Shown piece by piece: positions 29,688 through 59,242 of a DNA stretch of 64,000 nt. This DNA is from Methanosarcina acetivorans C2A (GTDB lineage: Archaea; Halobacteriota; Methanosarcinia; Methanosarcinales; Methanosarcinaceae). Every line of letters begins with the position of its first letter. Positions within the stretch are counted from its first letter, which is position 1. The translations under genes were made by a program, and so were the position numbers. Below the pieces are notes generated by a model, which saw nothing but the letters and a program-made list of their open reading frames with translations, made no database searches and was not told the origin of the DNA. Location: positions 1,488,001 to 1,552,000 of the forward strand of contig NC_003552.1 of assembly GCF_000007345.1 (NCBI RefSeq). Reading direction: 5' to 3'.

Positions 29688-31001
29688 TCATCACTTCTCC
29701 GTTCTTCAAAAACGATTTAAAAATTCAGTTTTACTGGATGCTGCCGATTTATTTTCTTGACTCCGGAATATTTTTAAACTCTTTGCCATGTCATAAAGGA
29801 GTTTACGTATCTTTTTCAGGATGCTGCGGTCTGCTTGACATAATATTCTTCCAGGTCAGTATCTCCCGATCATGTTTGTATATAAGGTAAGATATAAATG
29901 CGTAAGTCACGAAAATACTGAAGGTGCTGGAATCTGCATATCATTTTGCATATTTGTATCATAGATGTAGATGCAGTGAGTTAGTTTTTAGAGTACATTG
30001 AGAAGACTGGTTCAATGTAGAGCCCAAAACCTGTTATTTTCAAACAGGTTCTAAAAAATAGGTTCTACAAAACAGGTTCCACACTACATTAAGGCAGGCT
30101 TTCAAAGGTATTCTATGTTTTTCTTAGTTCTGATTTACGTAAACTTCCTTTTTATAAAATTGAGTCCTTAATGTTTTTTCAAAGTTTTCTCAAAAATAAG
30201 TAAACATATTCGTTATTTAAGCATTTTCAAATTAAATCGTATAATTGTCATGCTCTTTATTATGAACGTCCAGCTTATAAGTTGTCGCTGTCAACTGTTT
30301 AAAAAGCTTGTCTTTCATCCAAAAACGTTAAAAATGAGGCGAAGCAAATACTATTATTCTTATCAAAAATTGAAAGCTATTCATGATAGCAGCTCTTTTT
30401 TCCTGTTTCCGGTGTCTGAAAATCTGAGATGACTAAGTGAGTGGCACCTTCCCTGAAGAGGCTTCTTATTTGGCATGAAAGTTCTTTCAATTACTTCCAT
30501 GCCAAAGAAAACATTTCTTCCATGTCTATACTTAAACTGATATCGATCTTTCCAAGAGTGCAGGTCTGAAAAATGTTTTTAACAAGTCTCTGAATGTATG
30601 GTGAAAAATTCAAGGTACGGTTCCTCTGCCTTCGTGTAATTTTTTAATATATCAATTGATGTTGCTCTCGAATTTGTAAAATGGTGTCAAAAATTCAAAT
30701 TCATTTGCAATTACGGGTGAGGTAAGTGTTTATCAAATTCGAATGGAAGAAATGAAGAGCTAATTTGGCATCTCTATAGGAATAGTATTTCCTATGTGCA
30801 AATATTTATATGTTTGTATCTTTATTGAAATTACTGACATCCTACAAAACAGAACAAAAAAAGGGTTGGTGTAAATGTTGAATTCATAAAATTTGATAAC
30901 GCAAGTTTTTTCTTTGATGGAAATGCCATCATTAAAACTTTTAATTTGAACGTCATGAAGGGAGATTAAATACCGATCAAAGGCATATCAGGCGGAATGA
31001 T
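29688..31001. other. 1.3-kb spacer with hairpin-forming repeat and kinase remnant
   Basis: No intact gene is seen. The motif AACCTGT / ACAGGTT forms a 7-bp stem at 30028-30050, and AACAGGTT-like words recur nearby to about 30095. A decayed kinase fragment lies at 30490-30640. AAATATTTATATG near 30803 is a plausible TATA box for the plus-strand genes that start at 31002. A 60-codon frame at 30250-30432 has no ribosome-binding site or recognisable motif. Confidence 0.5.
30490..30640 (-). pseudogene. Fragment of a HisKA_2 histidine kinase gene
   Basis: The minus strand reads TLNFSPYIQRLVKNIFQ, then LGKIDISLSIDMEE, ending in WK and a stop. The kinase at 34072-38139 reads TLNFSPYLQRLVKNLFQ and LGNVDISLSMDIEE at the same point. 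DNA similarity is roughly four bases in five over 145 bases. Both ends are lost, so this is the relic of a third kinase of this kind. Confidence 0.8.
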
Positions 31002-32234
31002 ATGAAAGTAATAGATGAAACAATGAGCATATACCAGATCTTAAGCGAATATCCTTTTTTGCTTAAAATATTCAAACAGCATGGAATGGAGAAATTTGAA
31101 AACAGGGAAGTTCTCGAAAAACTTGGTCCTTTACTGAAATTGAAAACAGCCCTATCAATGGTATCGGTGAATGAAGACTCCTTTATTGAGCTCCTGAACC
31201 AGGCTGTTTCGGACAGTGAAGCAAAAGGAGATTTTACCCTTGCAGATTCCCCGGAACGACAAAAAGAGCTGACCCTTCTTGCCCTTTTGCCTTGCGGCAT
31301 GAAGATGCCTTTTTCCCGTGCATTTGATGACTTTTCAGCTGAATACAGCAGGCAAATGAATAATGTACTCCATTCTCTTGTCGAAGGCAATGTCAACCAT
31401 GAGCTTTCCTATTATGCCTATATCGATCTGGTTACATCGATTGACGAACTCCCGGACATAATTATCAGTTCTGATATTAACAGTTTCTACCATAAATCCT
31501 TCCAGGAGAATTTCCTTAATAAAGAATATTTCGTAAATCTTAATTCATCCCCCATGAACATTGATTTTGAATCTATCGGTTTTGCAGATCCTCGCGCCCA
31601 GTTTACCATGATCTCTGCAAACCTTCTTGTTCTGGTTACAATAGATGAACTCATACAGGGTAATACCAGACCGGAGTCCTGGGAAGATCTCTTAAAAGCT
31701 GGGTACCGGAACAGGGTTGTTATGCGGGGACAGGATGGCTTTTTCTGTAATGGAGTACTGCTCCCGTTCTACCGGTTATACGGGATGGAGGGAATTAAAA
31801 AACTTGCTTCGTCAGTATATACGGGACTCCATCCGTCCGAGATGGTCAAAATGATAGACAGCAAAAAAGATGATGTACCACCCATGTATATCATGCCTCT
31901 CTTCTTTGCTAAGAAAATTCAGGACAAATCCCGGATAACAATCAATATACCTTCGGAAGGAGCTATTGTAAGCCCTGTGCAGATGCTGGTCAAAAAAAGT
32001 GCAGTAGAAAGGGTTAAGGAGATCACGGATTTTCTCTGTGGAAAAGGGTTTGGGAAAATCTCTGCCCGGGCTTTTTTCCCGACAACAAACCCTGAAGTTG
32101 AGAATAATCTTGAAGGAATCAAACTCTATTGGCTGGGCTGGGACTTCCTGATGAATACCGACATAGGAGAACTTAAAAAAGAAGTTGAAGAGGTTTTCAA
32201 TGCCCAGTTCAGAGAGACCGGAGGCTTTGTGTGA
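31002..32234 (+). CDS. Signal-less solute-binding-like protein with DUF1858-like N-terminal domain
   Basis: A 410-residue protein with two parts. Residues 1-65 resemble the DUF1858 helical domain (MSIYQILSEYPFLLKIFKQHGM), but without the cysteines often present in that domain. The remainder looks like a periplasmic-binding-protein type II fold of the iron/2-aminoethylphosphonate kind (ELPDIIISSDINSFYH, GFADPRAQFTMISANLLVLV, SWEDLLKAGYRNRVVM, and the C-terminal ISARAFFPTTNPEVEN). There is no signal peptide, lipobox or membrane segment, so it should be cytoplasmic. GGCGG precedes the ATG. Its stop overlaps the next start (GTGA), indicating coupling with the GTPase and, one base further on, the ABC ATPase. 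Function is not known to me. Confidence 0.75.
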   Translation: MKVIDETMSIYQILSEYPFLLKIFKQHGMEKFENREVLEKLGPLLKLKTALSMVSVNEDSFIELLNQAVSDSEAKGDFTLADSPERQKELTLLALLPCGMKMPFSRAFDDFSAEYSRQMNNVLHSLVEGNVNHELSYYAYIDLVTSIDELPDIIISSDINSFYHKSFQENFLNKEYFVNLNSSPMNIDFESIGFADPRAQFTMISANLLVLVTIDELIQGNTRPESWEDLLKAGYRNRVVMRGQDGFFCNGVLLPFYRLYGMEGIKKLASSVYTGLHPSEMVKMIDSKKDDVPPMYIMPLFFAKKIQDKSRITINIPSEGAIVSPVQMLVKKSAVERVKEITDFLCGKGFGKISARAFFPTTNPEVENNLEGIKLYWLGWDFLMNTDIGELKKEVEEVFNAQFRETGGFV

Positions 32235-32926
32235 GGCTTGTTACGGTAGCAGGTCCTCCATCCTCAGGAAAAACCAGTATCATTGTCAAGACCATCGAAG
32301 AGCTCAGGCAAAAAGGTTTTACAATCGGTGTGGTAAAATTTGACTGTCTTTCGGCTCAGGATGAAGAACTCTATTCCGCTCACACTATTCCGGTCAGGAC
32401 CGGGCTCTCCAGAGGGCTCTGTCCTGACCACTTTTTCGTAAGCAATATAGAAGAAGCTCTCAGGTGGGCAAGAGAGAGGAAGTTTGATTTTCTGATTACC
32501 GAGAGTGCCGGGCTCTGTAACCGTTGCTCTCCCCATATTAAGGATGTCCTGGCAATTTGTGTTATTGATAATCTGAGCGGAGTCAACACGCCTAAAAAAA
32601 TCGGCCCCATGTTAAAACTTGCCGACATTGTTGTTATTACAAAAGGGGATATTGTTTCCCAGGCAGAGCGTGAGGTCTTTGCATACAGGGTCAGACAGGT
32701 TAACCCCAGGGGAATGATAGTCCAGGTTAATGGAGTTACAGGCCAGGGTAGTTTCTATCTTGCAAAACTTGTGGAAAAAACTTCTACAATTGAAACCCTT
32801 CAGGGAGCCACACTCCGATTTACTATGCCCGGAGCCCTATGTTCATATTGTCTCGGAGAGAGAAAAATCGGGGATGACAGGCAGATTGGTGTTTCAAAGC
32901 TGGTTAATTTCAGAGGAGAAGAATAG
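32231..32926 (+). CDS. P-loop GTPase with cysteine motifs (HypB/CobW-like)
   Basis: A 231-residue SIMIBI-type nucleotide-binding protein beginning at an overlapping GTG. Walker A is GPPSSGKTS, and guanine specificity is suggested by VITKGD. It has three cysteine sites: GLSRGLCPDH, ESAGLCNRCSPH and the C-terminal ALCSYCLGERKIG. This looks like the metal-handling GTPases HypB, UreG and CobW rather than a signalling GTPase. It is sandwiched, with overlap or a one-base gap, between the solute-binding-like protein and an ABC ATPase. Inference: a nucleotide-driven step in metal or metallocofactor delivery. The stop is TAG; read-through as pyrrolysine would add only 12 residues. Confidence 0.75.
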   Translation: MRLVTVAGPPSSGKTSIIVKTIEELRQKGFTIGVVKFDCLSAQDEELYSAHTIPVRTGLSRGLCPDHFFVSNIEEALRWARERKFDFLITESAGLCNRCSPHIKDVLAICVIDNLSGVNTPKKIGPMLKLADIVVITKGDIVSQAEREVFAYRVRQVNPRGMIVQVNGVTGQGSFYLAKLVEKTSTIETLQGATLRFTMPGALCSYCLGERKIGDDRQIGVSKLVNFRGEE

Positions 32927-32927
32927 C

Positions 32928-33941
32928 TTGCGTACAGATTTGCTTCACATGACAATAAATGAACTCAGGGAGATGATGCCCTGGATAGAGGATTACTTCT
33001 CTGCATTTGCAATTGATCCTGTGCAGTTCGGGAACAGGAACCTGGAAGAGCTGGGTTCGATACTTGGTGAAGATTATTTTATTGAGATGGGAAGCAGTTC
33101 TCTCGCCTTTATTGATGGTTTCTTTCTATTTATTGAGCAGGCCAGGGCTCTTCAACAGGGAAATGGGCCTACAATTGAGTCCCTGACCGTGCTCCCGGGA
33201 CGTAACAAGAATGGGGAAAAAGAAGCCTTTGCGGTAAAACTGAAAAAGGGTGAGGTGACAGCAATTGTAGGTCCGACAGGCTCGGGCAAGTCACGTCTTC
33301 TGGCCGATATCGAATCTCTGGCTCAGGAGGATACTCCCACCGGCCGCAAAATCCTGGTTAACGGCCGAGCTCCCGTGGATGAGGAGCGTTTCTCAACTGA
33401 GGGGCGTTTTATTGCGCAGCTTTCTCAGAACATGAACTTTGTTATGGATCTCAGTGTCGAGGAGTTTCTGACCCTGCATGCCGAGAGCCGTATGGTCGAT
33501 GAGGTCTCCCTTATTGTTCAGAAAATATATGATACCGCAAACATTCTGGCGGGAGAACCTTTCAGCAGGAAAACTCCCGTTACGGAACTTTCAGGGGGCC
33601 AGTCCCGCGCCCTGATGATTGCAGATACCGCACTGCTCAGTCCGGCGGCTGTCGTCCTGATCGATGAGATTGAGAATGCCGGAGTCGACAAGGTTAGATC
33701 TCTGGAGCTTCTGGTAAGTAATAACAAGATCGTTTTAATCAGTACTCATGATCCTCTTCTGGCTCTCTCGGCAGATCAGCGCCTGGTCATTCAATATGGT
33801 GGGATTTCAAAACTTTTAAAAACCACAGAGGATGAGAAAAAGTACCTGGAGAGCCTTGAAAAAGTAGACCGCAAACTTACTCATCTTAGAAATCAGTTGA
33901 GAAGAGGGGAAGAAATCGACCTCAGCGATTTTCTGGTGTAA
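32928..33941 (+). CDS. ABC-type ATPase without a permease, with N-terminal helical domain
   Basis: A 337-residue soluble ABC ATPase. All nucleotide motifs are present: Walker A GPTGSGKS, Q-loop IAQLSQNM, signature LSGGQSRA, Walker B VVLIDEIENAG and the switch histidine STHDP. About 80 residues precede the ATPase core (IEDYFSAFAIDPVQFGNRNLEEL), and I find them reminiscent of the DUF1858/DUF542 (ScdA-N) helical domain, again without cysteines. I chose the TTG at 32928 because GGAG lies nine bases upstream; an ATG at 32949 is possible. No transmembrane partner is encoded nearby, so a transport role is doubtful. Confidence 0.8.
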   Translation: MRTDLLHMTINELREMMPWIEDYFSAFAIDPVQFGNRNLEELGSILGEDYFIEMGSSSLAFIDGFFLFIEQARALQQGNGPTIESLTVLPGRNKNGEKEAFAVKLKKGEVTAIVGPTGSGKSRLLADIESLAQEDTPTGRKILVNGRAPVDEERFSTEGRFIAQLSQNMNFVMDLSVEEFLTLHAESRMVDEVSLIVQKIYDTANILAGEPFSRKTPVTELSGGQSRALMIADTALLSPAAVVLIDEIENAGVDKVRSLELLVSNNKIVLISTHDPLLALSADQRLVIQYGGISKLLKTTEDEKKYLESLEKVDRKLTHLRNQLRRGEEIDLSDFLV

Positions 33942-55486: not shown

Positions 55487-55708
55487 ATCCCTGGAATTGT
55501 GAGAATACTTGATAAGCCCTTAATTGTGAGGATACTAACAAGTCCCTGGCATGAGAATATGAAAAAACCTTATCATTAGAATCACTAGAATCTGAATAAG
55601 CCCTTAATAAGTACTAGAAATATATCTTATGGGGAAAGTATATATCTTTAAGGGAAAGCCTATATAACAATGGGAAAAGCCTGAGTTTTTTCAAACACGG
55701 TGATCCAG

Positions 55709-56356
55709 TTGATTGATCTTCATACTCACACTATTTTCAGTGACGGGGAACTGCTCCCCAGTGAACTCGTCCGGCGGGCCGTTATTCACGGCTACGAGGC
55801 TATTGCACTTACCGATCATGCAGACTATACGAACCTCGAACAGCTTCTCGATGCTGCAAAGAAAGCAAAGTACCTGGAGGAAGAGTGGGATATCCGCGTC
55901 CTGCCCGGAGTCGAGCTGACGCACGTCCCTCCGAGAAAGATTGCTCCCATGGCAAAGAAAGCAAAAGAGCTGGGCGCAGAAATCGTGGTCGTACACGGGG
56001 AAACAATCTACGAACCGGTTGCCCCCGGGACAAATGCAGCATCAGCTGCCTGTGAATATGTTGATATCCTTGCCCACCCGGGTCTTATCTCCGAAGAAGA
56101 TGTCCGGACTGCGGCAGAGAACAATGTGTTACTCGAGCTCACTGCAAGGAACGGGCACAACAGGACTAACGGGCATGTTGCAAGACTTGCCCTCGAATTA
56201 GGAGCAAAGCTTGTCGTGAACACCGATACCCATGCCCCTGAGGACCTGATCACCGATGAAACAGCCCTTCAAATTGCAATGGGATCCGGGCTTACCGAGT
56301 CCGGGGCAAAAGACGCGTTTGAAGCGTCTAAAAAGAAGGTAGCGGAGATTGTTTAA
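55709..56356 (+). CDS. PHP-domain phosphoesterase (histidinol-phosphatase-like), copy 1
   Basis: A 215-residue PHP-fold metallo-phosphoesterase. Metal-binding motifs are DLHTHTIFSDG, LTDHAD, GVELTHV, VVVHGET, LAHPG and NTDTHA. I prefer the TTG at 55709: GGTGAT lies five bases upstream and the protein then starts MIDLHTH; a GTG at 55700 is in frame. It is the first of two tandem copies that share about 110 bases of leader. Substrate unknown. Confidence 0.88.
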   Translation: MIDLHTHTIFSDGELLPSELVRRAVIHGYEAIALTDHADYTNLEQLLDAAKKAKYLEEEWDIRVLPGVELTHVPPRKIAPMAKKAKELGAEIVVVHGETIYEPVAPGTNAASAACEYVDILAHPGLISEEDVRTAAENNVLLELTARNGHNRTNGHVARLALELGAKLVVNTDTHAPEDLITDETALQIAMGSGLTESGAKDAFEASKKKVAEIV

Positions 56357-58475
56357 AGGGTGATGTTTCTTTTCTGTTTTTGATTTTTTATCTTTCTTCG
56401 TTTTGCGTAATTTTTCCAGAGAAATAACTGTGGGGACGGAAATTGTTCTCTGCACGGGGATTATATTCAGTTATCAGGACTTAATTGGTCTGTAGTATCT
56501 GAGTATCCGTGCCGGTTGTGCATGTTGCCTTATACTTTAGTTTCAAAGAAACGCGATTTTAACCTCAATTTTCTCTAAAAAACAATATCAGCTGACCTTT
56601 TGCAAATTCTTTATTTGTAGATCCTAAATATTAAATTCACTTTAAAAAGTCTATTAATATTGTTTATTTCAAAAAGTTATTTATATAAGTAGATCATAAT
56701 TAATATTATGGTATTTTTAAGAAAGAAACTCGTCAACGGGAAACCTTACTGGTACATAGTAGAATCTGCCAGAGTTGATGGAAAGGTAAAAACCATTTTT
56801 CAGGTTTATCTGGGTAGCGCAGAAAAAATACTTGAGATGAAAAGGCAATGTGAATCATTGCCCTATGATAAACTTAGATCCTTTGATTACGGCAAGCTTG
56901 CCGCACTCCTTCATGTGAATGAAGAACTTGGATTCACTGACATAGTTAACAAGCATACTGACAAAAAATTAATAGATGGATTGAGTGTTGGAGAATACCT
57001 TTTACTTGACGTAATCGGAAAAAGTCACGGCGTTTTAAGTGAAAACGGGATTGAAGAATGGTTCAAAAAATCCCCTTTAGCTTTCATGTGGAAATTCCCG
57101 CACAAGTTAAATTGTCAGAATTTTCTGAACCAAATGAATTATGTTGACTTAGAGACGATGAAAAAGATCGAAGACGATCTTTGCAGAGTTCTTGTAGGAA
57201 AGGGATTTACTCCATCAATAATGTTTGTGGATGAATCAAACTGGTTTACATATGCTAACAATTATGATGACGAGAGCGAACTGCTTCATAAAGGATATAA
57301 TAAAAAGCATAGGAAAGACAAAAATCAAATCTGTGTTTCGCTAGCTGTAAACGAGGACAACATACCTTTTATTCATGAAACATATTCTGGAAATGTTCAT
57401 GACTCTGAAGAATTTTCAGGCATAGTAGATAAAATCATAAACAGACTGACTGAATTAAATATCTGTTCTGAAGATCTTGTTCTTGTTTTCGATAAGGGTA
57501 ACAACTCAAAGGTCAACATTGAAAAGGTAACATCAAAAATGAATTTTGTAGGATCTGTAAAAGCAAATCAGGCCGAGAAGCTTCTCGATGTTCCACTTTC
57601 CAAATATGAGTGTTTATACAAGAATTCGAAAGGTAACAAAATTTTTGGATACAGGACAAAACACCAGTTTTATGGAACAGAATATACAACCGTAATAACC
57701 TACAACGAGGGAACTTACAAGCTTCAAAAGAGCACTTATGAAACAAACAAATCAAGAATAATTGATAGTTTGGAGGATCTTCGGAGAAGATTAGAAAGCA
57801 GTAAAGGAAAAGAAAGAAACAGGAGCAGCGTAGAACGTGAGGTTGCAGGAATTATTCTGAAAAAATACAGTAGCGTTATAAAATATGAAATAATTGATGC
57901 TCTGGAAGGGAAGAAAAAACCTCAGTTAAAGTTCTGGATTGATGAAGATAACGAAAAAAAGTGCGAAAAGACGTTTGGGAAGAACATCCTATTTACGGAC
58001 AAGCATAAATGGCAAACTAAAAAGATAGTGAAAACATATAACAGTAAGAATCTTGTTGAAGATGATTTTAAACTGTTGAATGATCACTTGCTTGTTCCTG
58101 TAGGACCAGTATATCATCACAAGGATGAAAACATTAGAGTTCATGTGTTTTTGGCTATGGTTGGCCTACTTTTCTACAGATACCTGGCATGGGAGACCAA
58201 AATGTACGGTTTCTCTATGAAAAAGCTCATTGAAAAACTGTCTGAGATCAAGATTGCGGTAGTTCAGGAAAAAGAGTCCAAAAAAAGCAAAATTATTGTG
58301 GAAGAAATGGACACAAAACAAGCATCGTTATTTTCTTTTCTGAACATGGAAAAATACCTGCCATTTTAACAAAATCGTTAGTGGCAGGATTATTCTTTCG
58401 TTAGGCATACACAAACAAAGCCAGAGGATAACGGAAAATCACTCATCTTTGAAAGGTGAGTTATAGTAGTTACAG
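56357..58475 (+). mobile_element. IS1634-like insertion between the two PHP copies (ends not resolved)
   Basis: The DNA between the two PHP copies contains a full-length IS4/IS1634-type transposase gene. Homology between the two PHP loci begins again at about 58478, so the right end of the insertion must lie before that. I searched the flanks by eye and did not find convincing terminal inverted repeats or a target duplication, so the limits given are outer bounds only. Confidence 0.5.
56708..58369 (+). CDS. IS1634-family (IS4 superfamily) transposase
   Basis: A 553-residue DDE transposase, full length. The N-terminus GKPYWYIVESARVDGKVKTI is typical of the IS1634 group. Likely catalytic aspartates lie in MFVDESNWF and VLVFDKGNNS. 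A late segment RVHVFLAMVGLLFYRYLAW is the C-terminal motif of the group, close to the expected catalytic Glu. The frame is intact, so the element may still be active. It is more AT-rich than the PHP genes around it. Confidence 0.88.
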   Translation: MVFLRKKLVNGKPYWYIVESARVDGKVKTIFQVYLGSAEKILEMKRQCESLPYDKLRSFDYGKLAALLHVNEELGFTDIVNKHTDKKLIDGLSVGEYLLLDVIGKSHGVLSENGIEEWFKKSPLAFMWKFPHKLNCQNFLNQMNYVDLETMKKIEDDLCRVLVGKGFTPSIMFVDESNWFTYANNYDDESELLHKGYNKKHRKDKNQICVSLAVNEDNIPFIHETYSGNVHDSEEFSGIVDKIINRLTELNICSEDLVLVFDKGNNSKVNIEKVTSKMNFVGSVKANQAEKLLDVPLSKYECLYKNSKGNKIFGYRTKHQFYGTEYTTVITYNEGTYKLQKSTYETNKSRIIDSLEDLRRRLESSKGKERNRSSVEREVAGIILKKYSSVIKYEIIDALEGKKKPQLKFWIDEDNEKKCEKTFGKNILFTDKHKWQTKKIVKTYNSKNLVEDDFKLLNDHLLVPVGPVYHHKDENIRVHVFLAMVGLLFYRYLAWETKMYGFSMKKLIEKLSEIKIAVVQEKESKKSKIIVEEMDTKQASLFSFLNMEKYLPF

Positions 58476-58594
58476 TACTTTTCGGATAGGCTCTAAGTAC
58501 CGGAAATATATCTTATGGGGAAAGTATATCTCTGTAAGGAAAAATCTTTATAACGATAGGAAAAGCCTGAGTTTTTTCGAACAGGGTGATCCAG

Positions 58595-59242
58595 TTGATT
58601 GACCTTCACACTCACACAATTTTTAGTGATGGAGAATTCCTCCCCAGCGAACTTGTCCGGCATGCAGTTCTCCACGGCTATGAGGCTGTTGCAATTACCG
58701 ACCATGCTGATCACACAAATCTCGAATGGCTTCTGGAAGCCGCAAAGAAAGCAAAATACCTCGAAGAAGAATGGGATATCCGCGTCCTGTCCGGAGTCGA
58801 ACTGACACATGTCCCTCCGAGGAAGATTGCCCCTCTGTCAAAGAAAGCAAAAGAGCTGGGCGCAGAAATCGTGGTCGTACACGGGGAAACCATCTCAGAA
58901 CCGGTTGCCCCCGGAACAAATTCAGCCTCAGTTGCCTGTGAGTATGTTGATATCCTTGCCCACCCCGGCCTGATCTCGGAGGAAGACGTTCAGACAGCTG
59001 TAGATAACAACGTTCTCCTTGAAATTACCACCAGAAACGGGCACAACAGGACAAATGGCCATGTTGCCAGGCTTGCCCTCGAAATCGGTGCAACTCTTGT
59101 AGTGAACACCGATACCCACGGGCCTGGAAACCTGATCACCGATGAGACTGCCCTTAAAATTGCAATGGGGGCCGGGCTTACCGAATCAAGGGTAAAAGAA
59201 GCATTTGAAGCGTCTAAAAAGAAGGTAGCAGAGATAGTCTGA
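58595..59242 (+). CDS. PHP-domain phosphoesterase, copy 2
   Basis: A 215-residue PHP protein, close paralogue of the gene at 55709-56356. All metal motifs are kept: DLHTHTIFSDG, ITDHADH, GVELTHV, VVVHGET, LAHPG, NTDTHG. Differences are spread over the gene and mostly conservative, so both copies look functional. The leader (GGGAAAAGCCTGAGTTTTTT-like) and the GGTGAT/TTG start are shared. Homology ends at the stop codon. Confidence 0.88.
   Translation: MIDLHTHTIFSDGEFLPSELVRHAVLHGYEAVAITDHADHTNLEWLLEAAKKAKYLEEEWDIRVLSGVELTHVPPRKIAPLSKKAKELGAEIVVVHGETISEPVAPGTNSASVACEYVDILAHPGLISEEDVQTAVDNNVLLEITTRNGHNRTNGHVARLALEIGATLVVNTDTHGPGNLITDETALKIAMGAGLTESRVKEAFEASKKKVAEIV

Follow-up and report, generated by a model that had tools for sequence, protein, structure and literature searches.

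A solute-binding protein, a HypB-like GTPase and a permease-less ABC ATPase as a candidate cytosolic metallocofactor module in Methanosarcina acetivorans

What might a solute-binding protein (SBP) that is not exported, a GTPase rich in cysteine motifs, and an ATP-binding cassette (ABC) ATPase with no permease do together in one cell? This question is raised by three adjacent genes at positions 31002-33941 of a 64,000-nucleotide stretch of the Methanosarcina acetivorans C2A genome (NC_003552.1, contig positions 1488001-1552000), which we refer to as the window. The original prediction, made from the letters of the window, described the three genes as coupled, and re-reading the coordinates bears this out. 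Gene 2 starts with a GTG codon at 32231, and therefore its GTGA overlaps the stop codon of gene 1. Gene 3 starts with TTG at 32928, leaving a one-base gap from the end of gene 2; an in-frame ATG at 32949 is an alternative start. The three genes are as follows.

31002-32234, + strand: gene 1, cytosolic solute-binding-like protein with DUF1858 and SBP_bac_6 domains, 410 amino acids (Pfam; 20 family genomes; AlphaFold model)
32231-32926, + strand: gene 2, HypB/UreG-like SIMIBI GTPase, 231 amino acids (PF02492; match to HypB in the PDB, 3.9e-12)
32928-33941, + strand: gene 3, permease-less ABC ATPase, 337 amino acids (PF00005; motifs conserved among 48 homologues)

We propose, with moderate confidence, that this trio is a cytosolic, nucleotide-driven metallocofactor module whose likeliest client is nitrogenase. 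Given that its relatives are widespread in anaerobes and that its own branch tracks nitrogen-fixation genes, the trio is a probable helper in the loading of metal or metal-sulphur cofactors. Full trios with a DUF1858-type SBP are present in 20 of the 112 Methanosarcinaceae genomes. With a permissive cut-off, 33 of the 40 nearest genomes have a homologue of the GTPase; at E 1e-12, 81 of the 295 genomes in the phylum do. A search of viral contigs for GTPase relatives found none. A scan of genome contigs returned at least 483 relatives, the best 80 of which come mostly from anaerobic bacteria, including Clostridia, Desulfuromonadia, Halanaerobium, Spirochaetes, Fusobacteria, Deferribacterota and others. 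The order SBP-GTPase-ABC, with genes that mostly overlap or touch, is the rule in these more distant bacterial relatives, and the three-gene arrangement is kept across archaea and anaerobic bacteria. This distribution, over 20 of 112 family genomes and several bacterial phyla, confirms that conservation of the trio extends far beyond chance.

The product of gene 1 matches PF13343 SBP_bac_6 (2.9e-61) and PF08984 DUF1858 (8.5e-13), and has the following features.

31011-31187, + strand: DUF1858 domain, residues 4-62 (PF08984, E 8.5e-13; solved relative 2fi0)
31293-31295, + strand: codon of invariant Cys98, where the binding cleft begins (first cleft loop; 43 of 43 sequences)
31746-31748, + strand: codon of Cys249 (10 of 43 sequences; Phe in the remaining 33)
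31830-31844, + strand: codons of invariant His277-Pro-x-x-Met281 (43 of 43 sequences)

The prediction that this protein lacks a signal peptide holds throughout its family. Peak hydrophobicity within the 60 N-terminal residues was below a cut-off of 2.0 in all 87 SBP-like homologues, whereas 27 of 28 FecB and ModA controls from the same loci exceeded it. The AlphaFold model of gene 1 (predicted local distance difference test score 88) falls in the ferric-binding-protein fold group, with Z scores of 21-22, and its top Foldseek match is FutA. The fold does not name the ligand, however, because SBPs of other kinds, phosphosugar ones among them, score within 2 Z of the best ferric-binding-protein matches. 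FbpA-type iron binding can be ruled out: the iron-tyrosine pair of FbpA (1y4t) aligns with Phe301-Phe302, and each of these Phe residues is found in 42 of the 43 aligned sequences. What is conserved instead is a set of residues comprising Cys98, Asp152, His277 and Met281, all invariant in the alignment. Cys249 is common to the window branch and some homologues of the metal/nitrogenase type only, and the type linked to hybrid cluster protein (HCP) has Phe at that position. Model residue 89 aligns with FbpA residue 1, and from the alignment ranges Cys98 would sit at about the position of the FbpA His9 ligand. The pattern of conservation suggests that Cys98, His277 and Met281, together with Cys249, may serve as metal ligands.

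Gene 2 matches PF02492 cobW above the cut-off (2e-13). The original prediction had assigned it one cysteine site and two CxxC sites, and these correspond to three motifs that are invariant in an alignment of 18 divergent sequences.

32420-32431, + strand: CPDH motif, residues 64-67, equivalent of the HypB Cys-His metal site (18 of 18; HypB alignment)
32516-32527, + strand: CxRC motif, residues 96-99, in the region equivalent to the HypB ENVGNLxCP cysteine (18 of 18; alignment to 2hf8)
32840-32851, + strand: C-terminal CxxC motif, residues 204-207 (18 of 18)

In draft genomes, the GTPase genes of two loci, L006 (G019:C17:132283-132974) and L019 (G017), are broken by stop codons, which reflect either decay or sequencing errors.

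Gene 3 matches PF00005 ABC_tran (3e-16). It has the full set of ABC motifs that had been read in it: Walker A, the Q-loop, the LSGGQ signature, Walker B and the His motif vary little or not at all among 48 homologues.

33270-33293, + strand: Walker A, GPTGSGKS (nearly invariant)
33588-33602, + strand: ABC signature, LSGGQ (nearly invariant)
32949-33155, + strand: DUF1858-like helical N-terminal domain, residues about 8-76 (hhalign; helical in the model)

Both outer proteins had been thought to begin with DUF1858-like segments. The domain is clear in the SBP; in the ATPase it appears as a profile-profile match to the N-terminus of gene 1 (hhalign probability 95%, E 3e-8), and Pfam detects it weakly, in 8 of the 48 homologues. 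As had also been noted, no permease gene lies near the window trio.

We infer a mechanism from these features; what is carried, which enzyme receives it, the sequence of steps and what each nucleotide does are all provisional. The binding protein, a transporter-type receptor kept inside the cell, would carry a metal, metal-ligand or metal-sulphur cargo, with Cys98, His277 and Met281, plus Cys249 in the window branch, lining the cleft that holds it. The GTPase would take or gate the metal in a GTP-dependent manner through its CPDH, CxRC and CxxC sites; by analogy with HypB and UreG, GTP binding would close the metal site and hydrolysis would release the metal to the client. The ABC ATPase, free of a membrane partner like SufC, may use ATP to prise either the binding protein or the client open; by analogy with SufC and importers, hydrolysis by an ABC dimer would drive a clamped receptor open. 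The DUF1858-like domains of the SBP and the ATPase may dock the two proteins to each other or to the client. In the window branch that client would most likely be nitrogenase or its cofactor pathway, and the sister branches appear to serve HCP and coenzyme M synthase.

The GTPase tree and the SBP tree both split into groups with different neighbours. In one, the metal/nitrogenase group, the neighbours are FecBCD, ModABC, DUF364, AnfO, homocitrate synthase, NifX, nifH, a nif ferredoxin and nitro_assoc. The window clade consists of Methanosarcina, Methanolobus-type genomes and one deltaproteobacterial metagenome-assembled genome (MAG; L090). In the SBP tree it is sister to L104 and L162 (support 100/99) and joins the metal/nitrogenase group in a wider set (92/82), and the HCP group stands apart (99/100). 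At L104, a Pelobacter MAG, the trio lies within a nitrogenase cluster in the order nifD, nifK, nifX, trio, nifB, modABC.

The bacterial HCP group (45 GTPase entries) holds all 14 bacterial loci in which a gene for hybrid cluster protein is nearby. Other neighbours in this group are Crp/Fnr-type regulators, at 15 loci, and YgbA_NO, and HCP is encoded in 32 of the 37 genomes of the group, a count that has no base-rate control. Loci with HCP, Crp/Fnr or YgbA_NO neighbours are L101, L106, L109, L113, L116, L120, L125, L131, L132, L134, L140, L149, L152, L155, L163 and L164. These neighbourhoods suggest that the bacterial HCP-linked trio is a version for nitrosative stress and could take part in assembling the hybrid cluster. 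A third group consists of GTPase and ABC pairs from coenzyme M operons, where a COG2000 Fe-S protein and DUF39 accompany them. An ATPase, a Ni-binding GTPase and a COG2000 Fe-S protein were noted in such operons in 2025 as being of unknown role (PMC12068725).

Some further neighbourhoods deserve mention in their own right. At L050, L051, L052, L053 and similar archaeal loci the ABC and GTPase pair stands beside the COG2000 Fe-S protein and DUF39/MMP16; M. acetivorans is without this coenzyme M operon pair, yet its MMP16 works. At the Methanomicrobiales-type loci L075 and L077-L081 a GTPase and ABC pair is followed by a putative heavy-metal chelation protein (DUF4213-DUF364), in places near FecBCD or ModABC. 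At L089 and L074, NifX-like small proteins and MinD-type ATPases adjoin the trio and resemble orange-protein (Mo-Cu cluster) gene sets. In Methanolobus-type genomes the mercury methylation gene hgcA, often with hgcB, lies within a few kb of the trio (L069-L071, L073, L074 and L086-L088).

Co-occurrence links the window branch to nitrogenase, a connection that the original prediction had not foreseen. The nifD gene is present in all 20 archaeal trio carriers but in only 29 of 92 other family genomes (Fisher 4e-9, on counts that are not independent); within Methanosarcina the corresponding Fisher value is 0.03. Among 31 Methanosarcina genomes, the alternative-nitrogenase delta subunit AnfG/VnfG is found in 7 of the 8 carriers versus 1 of the 23 others (2e-5, again with counts that are not independent). 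Among the bacteria, nifH exceeds the cut-off in 16 of 19 genomes of the metal/nitrogenase type versus 5 of 37 of the HCP type (3e-7); L104 is among the three nifH misses, though its nif genes lie at the trio locus itself. M. acetivorans also has a paralogous trio at about 1459894-1462627, with 61% identity in the GTPase. It is next to a pair of homocitrate synthase genes, in the vicinity of the vnf/anf genes and about 10 kb past the structural genes of vnf.

The promoter region of the window trio holds two conserved elements.

30779-30792, no strand: palindrome GGAA-N6-TTCC, a likely operator (half-sites kept in 5 of 5 Methanosarcina loci; TTC[CT] form in 9 of 9 Methanolobus-type loci)
30801-30812, + strand: TATA-like element AATATTTATATG, just 3' of the palindrome (kept in the five aligned Methanosarcina trio promoters)

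The palindrome lies 223 bp ahead of the start of the SBP gene. Chance alone would be expected to give two of its kind in the window, and therefore the evidence lies in conservation and not in the pattern match. In the five aligned Methanosarcina loci all eight half-site bases are kept, compared with 3 of 6 spacer columns and 12% of columns in the preceding stretch. The nine Methanolobus-type loci have GGAA-N6-TTC[CT] just 5' of the same TATA-like element, which there carries one or two changes. The palindrome equals the NrpR operator consensus of Methanococcus maripaludis (PMC2723118). When the genome was scanned for the palindrome close to a TATA element, three sites turned up, a number near that of the chance control, and they did not make up a clear regulon.

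Several observations weigh against nitrogenase as the client. No nif gene adjoins the window copy, so that the link consists of branch and co-occurrence, and the neighbour of the trio in Methanolobus is hgcAB. The Methanosarcina carriers are probably one lineage, and genus-level counts are for that reason not independent. One carrier (G003) is without AnfG. Also, nifD is found in 12 of the 23 trio-free Methanosarcina genomes, and therefore the trio is not needed for nitrogen fixation. The metal/nitrogenase set of the bacterial nifH comparison includes GTPase and ABC pairs without a DUF1858-type SBP and was chosen after the neighbourhoods had been seen. Finally, the trio palindrome is not what nifH promoters in the genus have: in M. 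acetivorans and a relative, ACCGGCTTCCGGT or other elements stand there, and we do not claim NrpR control because these control nif promoters bear a different element.

These points leave room for a metal or cofactor module whose window copy serves something else, for example the HgcA corrinoid protein or an enzyme specific to large Methanosarcina and Methanolobus genomes, with nitrogenase co-occurring by way of large, versatile genomes. We regard this as possible but rather doubtful. Its support, besides the lack of a nif neighbour at the window copy, is that 9 of the 12 Methanolobus-type carriers have hgcA no more than about 6 kb from the trio and that hgcA is encoded in 11 of the 12. However, hgcA is missing from M. 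acetivorans and from most Methanosarcina carriers, the sister branch lies inside a nif cluster, and nifD accompanies the trio in every archaeal carrier.

A repair or stress system for metal clusters damaged by nitric oxide or oxygen, as the neighbours of the bacterial HCP branch would suggest, is unlikely for the window copy. Its SBP falls outside that branch and has Cys249 in place of the HCP-type residue, and within the genus HCP is rarer in carriers (3 of 6) than in other genomes (18 of 19). No HCP exceeded the cut-off in a search of the M. acetivorans genome, or in two other carriers, and for lack of HCP in M. acetivorans we reject a role of the window copy in maturing that protein.

An ordinary importer with its permease encoded elsewhere is very improbable. 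The SBP and the ABC ATPase do belong to importer families and some relatives adjoin FecC or ModB permeases, but none of the 87 SBPs has an export signal, the permeases near some relatives belong to Mod or Fec systems with their own ATPase and none is dedicated to the trio, and a HypB-like GTPase is not an importer part. A sensory module under the two MEDS/PAS histidine kinases that flank the operon is the least credible reading, since both kinases lie on the opposite strand and, among related loci with enough flank, a MEDS kinase stands beside the trio only in G003 (L067), the others having unrelated neighbours. Elsewhere in the window, at 55700-59242, two near-identical 218-amino-acid PHP-type genes (55700-56356 and 58586-59242) surround a 553-amino-acid transposase-like gene (56708-58369); the pair is a duplication around an insertion element.

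The original prediction of a nucleotide-driven machine for metals or cofactors, made up of transporter parts and working in the cytosol, fits the missing export signals, the HypB-type site and the neighbours, which are metal transporters, DUF364 heavy-metal-chelation proteins and nif genes. The proposal that the MEDS kinases govern it is unsupported, because they keep their place only in L067. A literature search found no description of the three-component trio, in keeping with the view that no such system had been described, except that the two-gene ABC and GTPase relative with its COG2000 protein is on record (PMC12068725).

More tentatively, the trio may represent a new class of cytosolic maturation machine, in which metal or metal-sulphur units are handed on by an inward-turned receptor together with a HypB-like GTPase and a soluble ABC motor; nitrogenase, HCP and coenzyme M synthase would each have a version of their own in anaerobic archaea and bacteria. 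If this is true, importer parts have been recast as an intracellular metal relay. To our knowledge, neither the assembly of the hybrid cluster of HCP nor the supply of metal to methanogen nitrogenases is well settled, and a widespread three-part module with branch-specific partners offers named genes for deletion tests in a tractable archaeon.

Several known systems resemble the trio in part. The coenzyme M operon pair has a homologous GTPase (38-50% identity) and a homologous ABC ATPase, but it lacks an SBP, has a shorter ATPase and the reverse gene order, forms a separate branch, and is accompanied by COG2000 and DUF39 proteins, which are absent beside the window trio. SufC and SmsC are likewise soluble ABC ATPases free of a membrane partner, and SmsC is among the fold matches of gene 3; the fold does not single out SufC, because LptB, CbiO and other ATPases match as well. 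No SufB/SufD-type scaffold was recognised among trio-operon neighbours, by eye and in the searches made, which did not extend to whole genomes. ABC importers pair their ATPase with a permease subunit, and the window operon has none. Periplasmic SBP_bac_6 proteins share the domain and fold of gene 1 but not its lack of an export signal. FbpA and FutA belong to the same fold group, whereas gene 1 is cytosolic, is fused to DUF1858, and has Phe301-Phe302 at the iron-tyrosine pair with Cys, His and Met residues instead. HypB and UreG share with gene 2 the SIMIBI fold, the P-loop/cobW domain, a Cys-His metal site in the same place between the switch regions, and a cysteine after the ESAG/ENVG strand. 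However, gene 2 is far from the equivalog cut-offs (50.6 versus 121.2 bits for HypB, 37.5 versus 204.2 bits for UreG), has the additional CxRC and C-terminal CxxC motifs, and is partnered by an ABC ATPase and an SBP and not by HypA or UreE/F/H. The trio as a whole is neither an importer nor HypB, UreG or FbpA proper, and would work like a combination of them.

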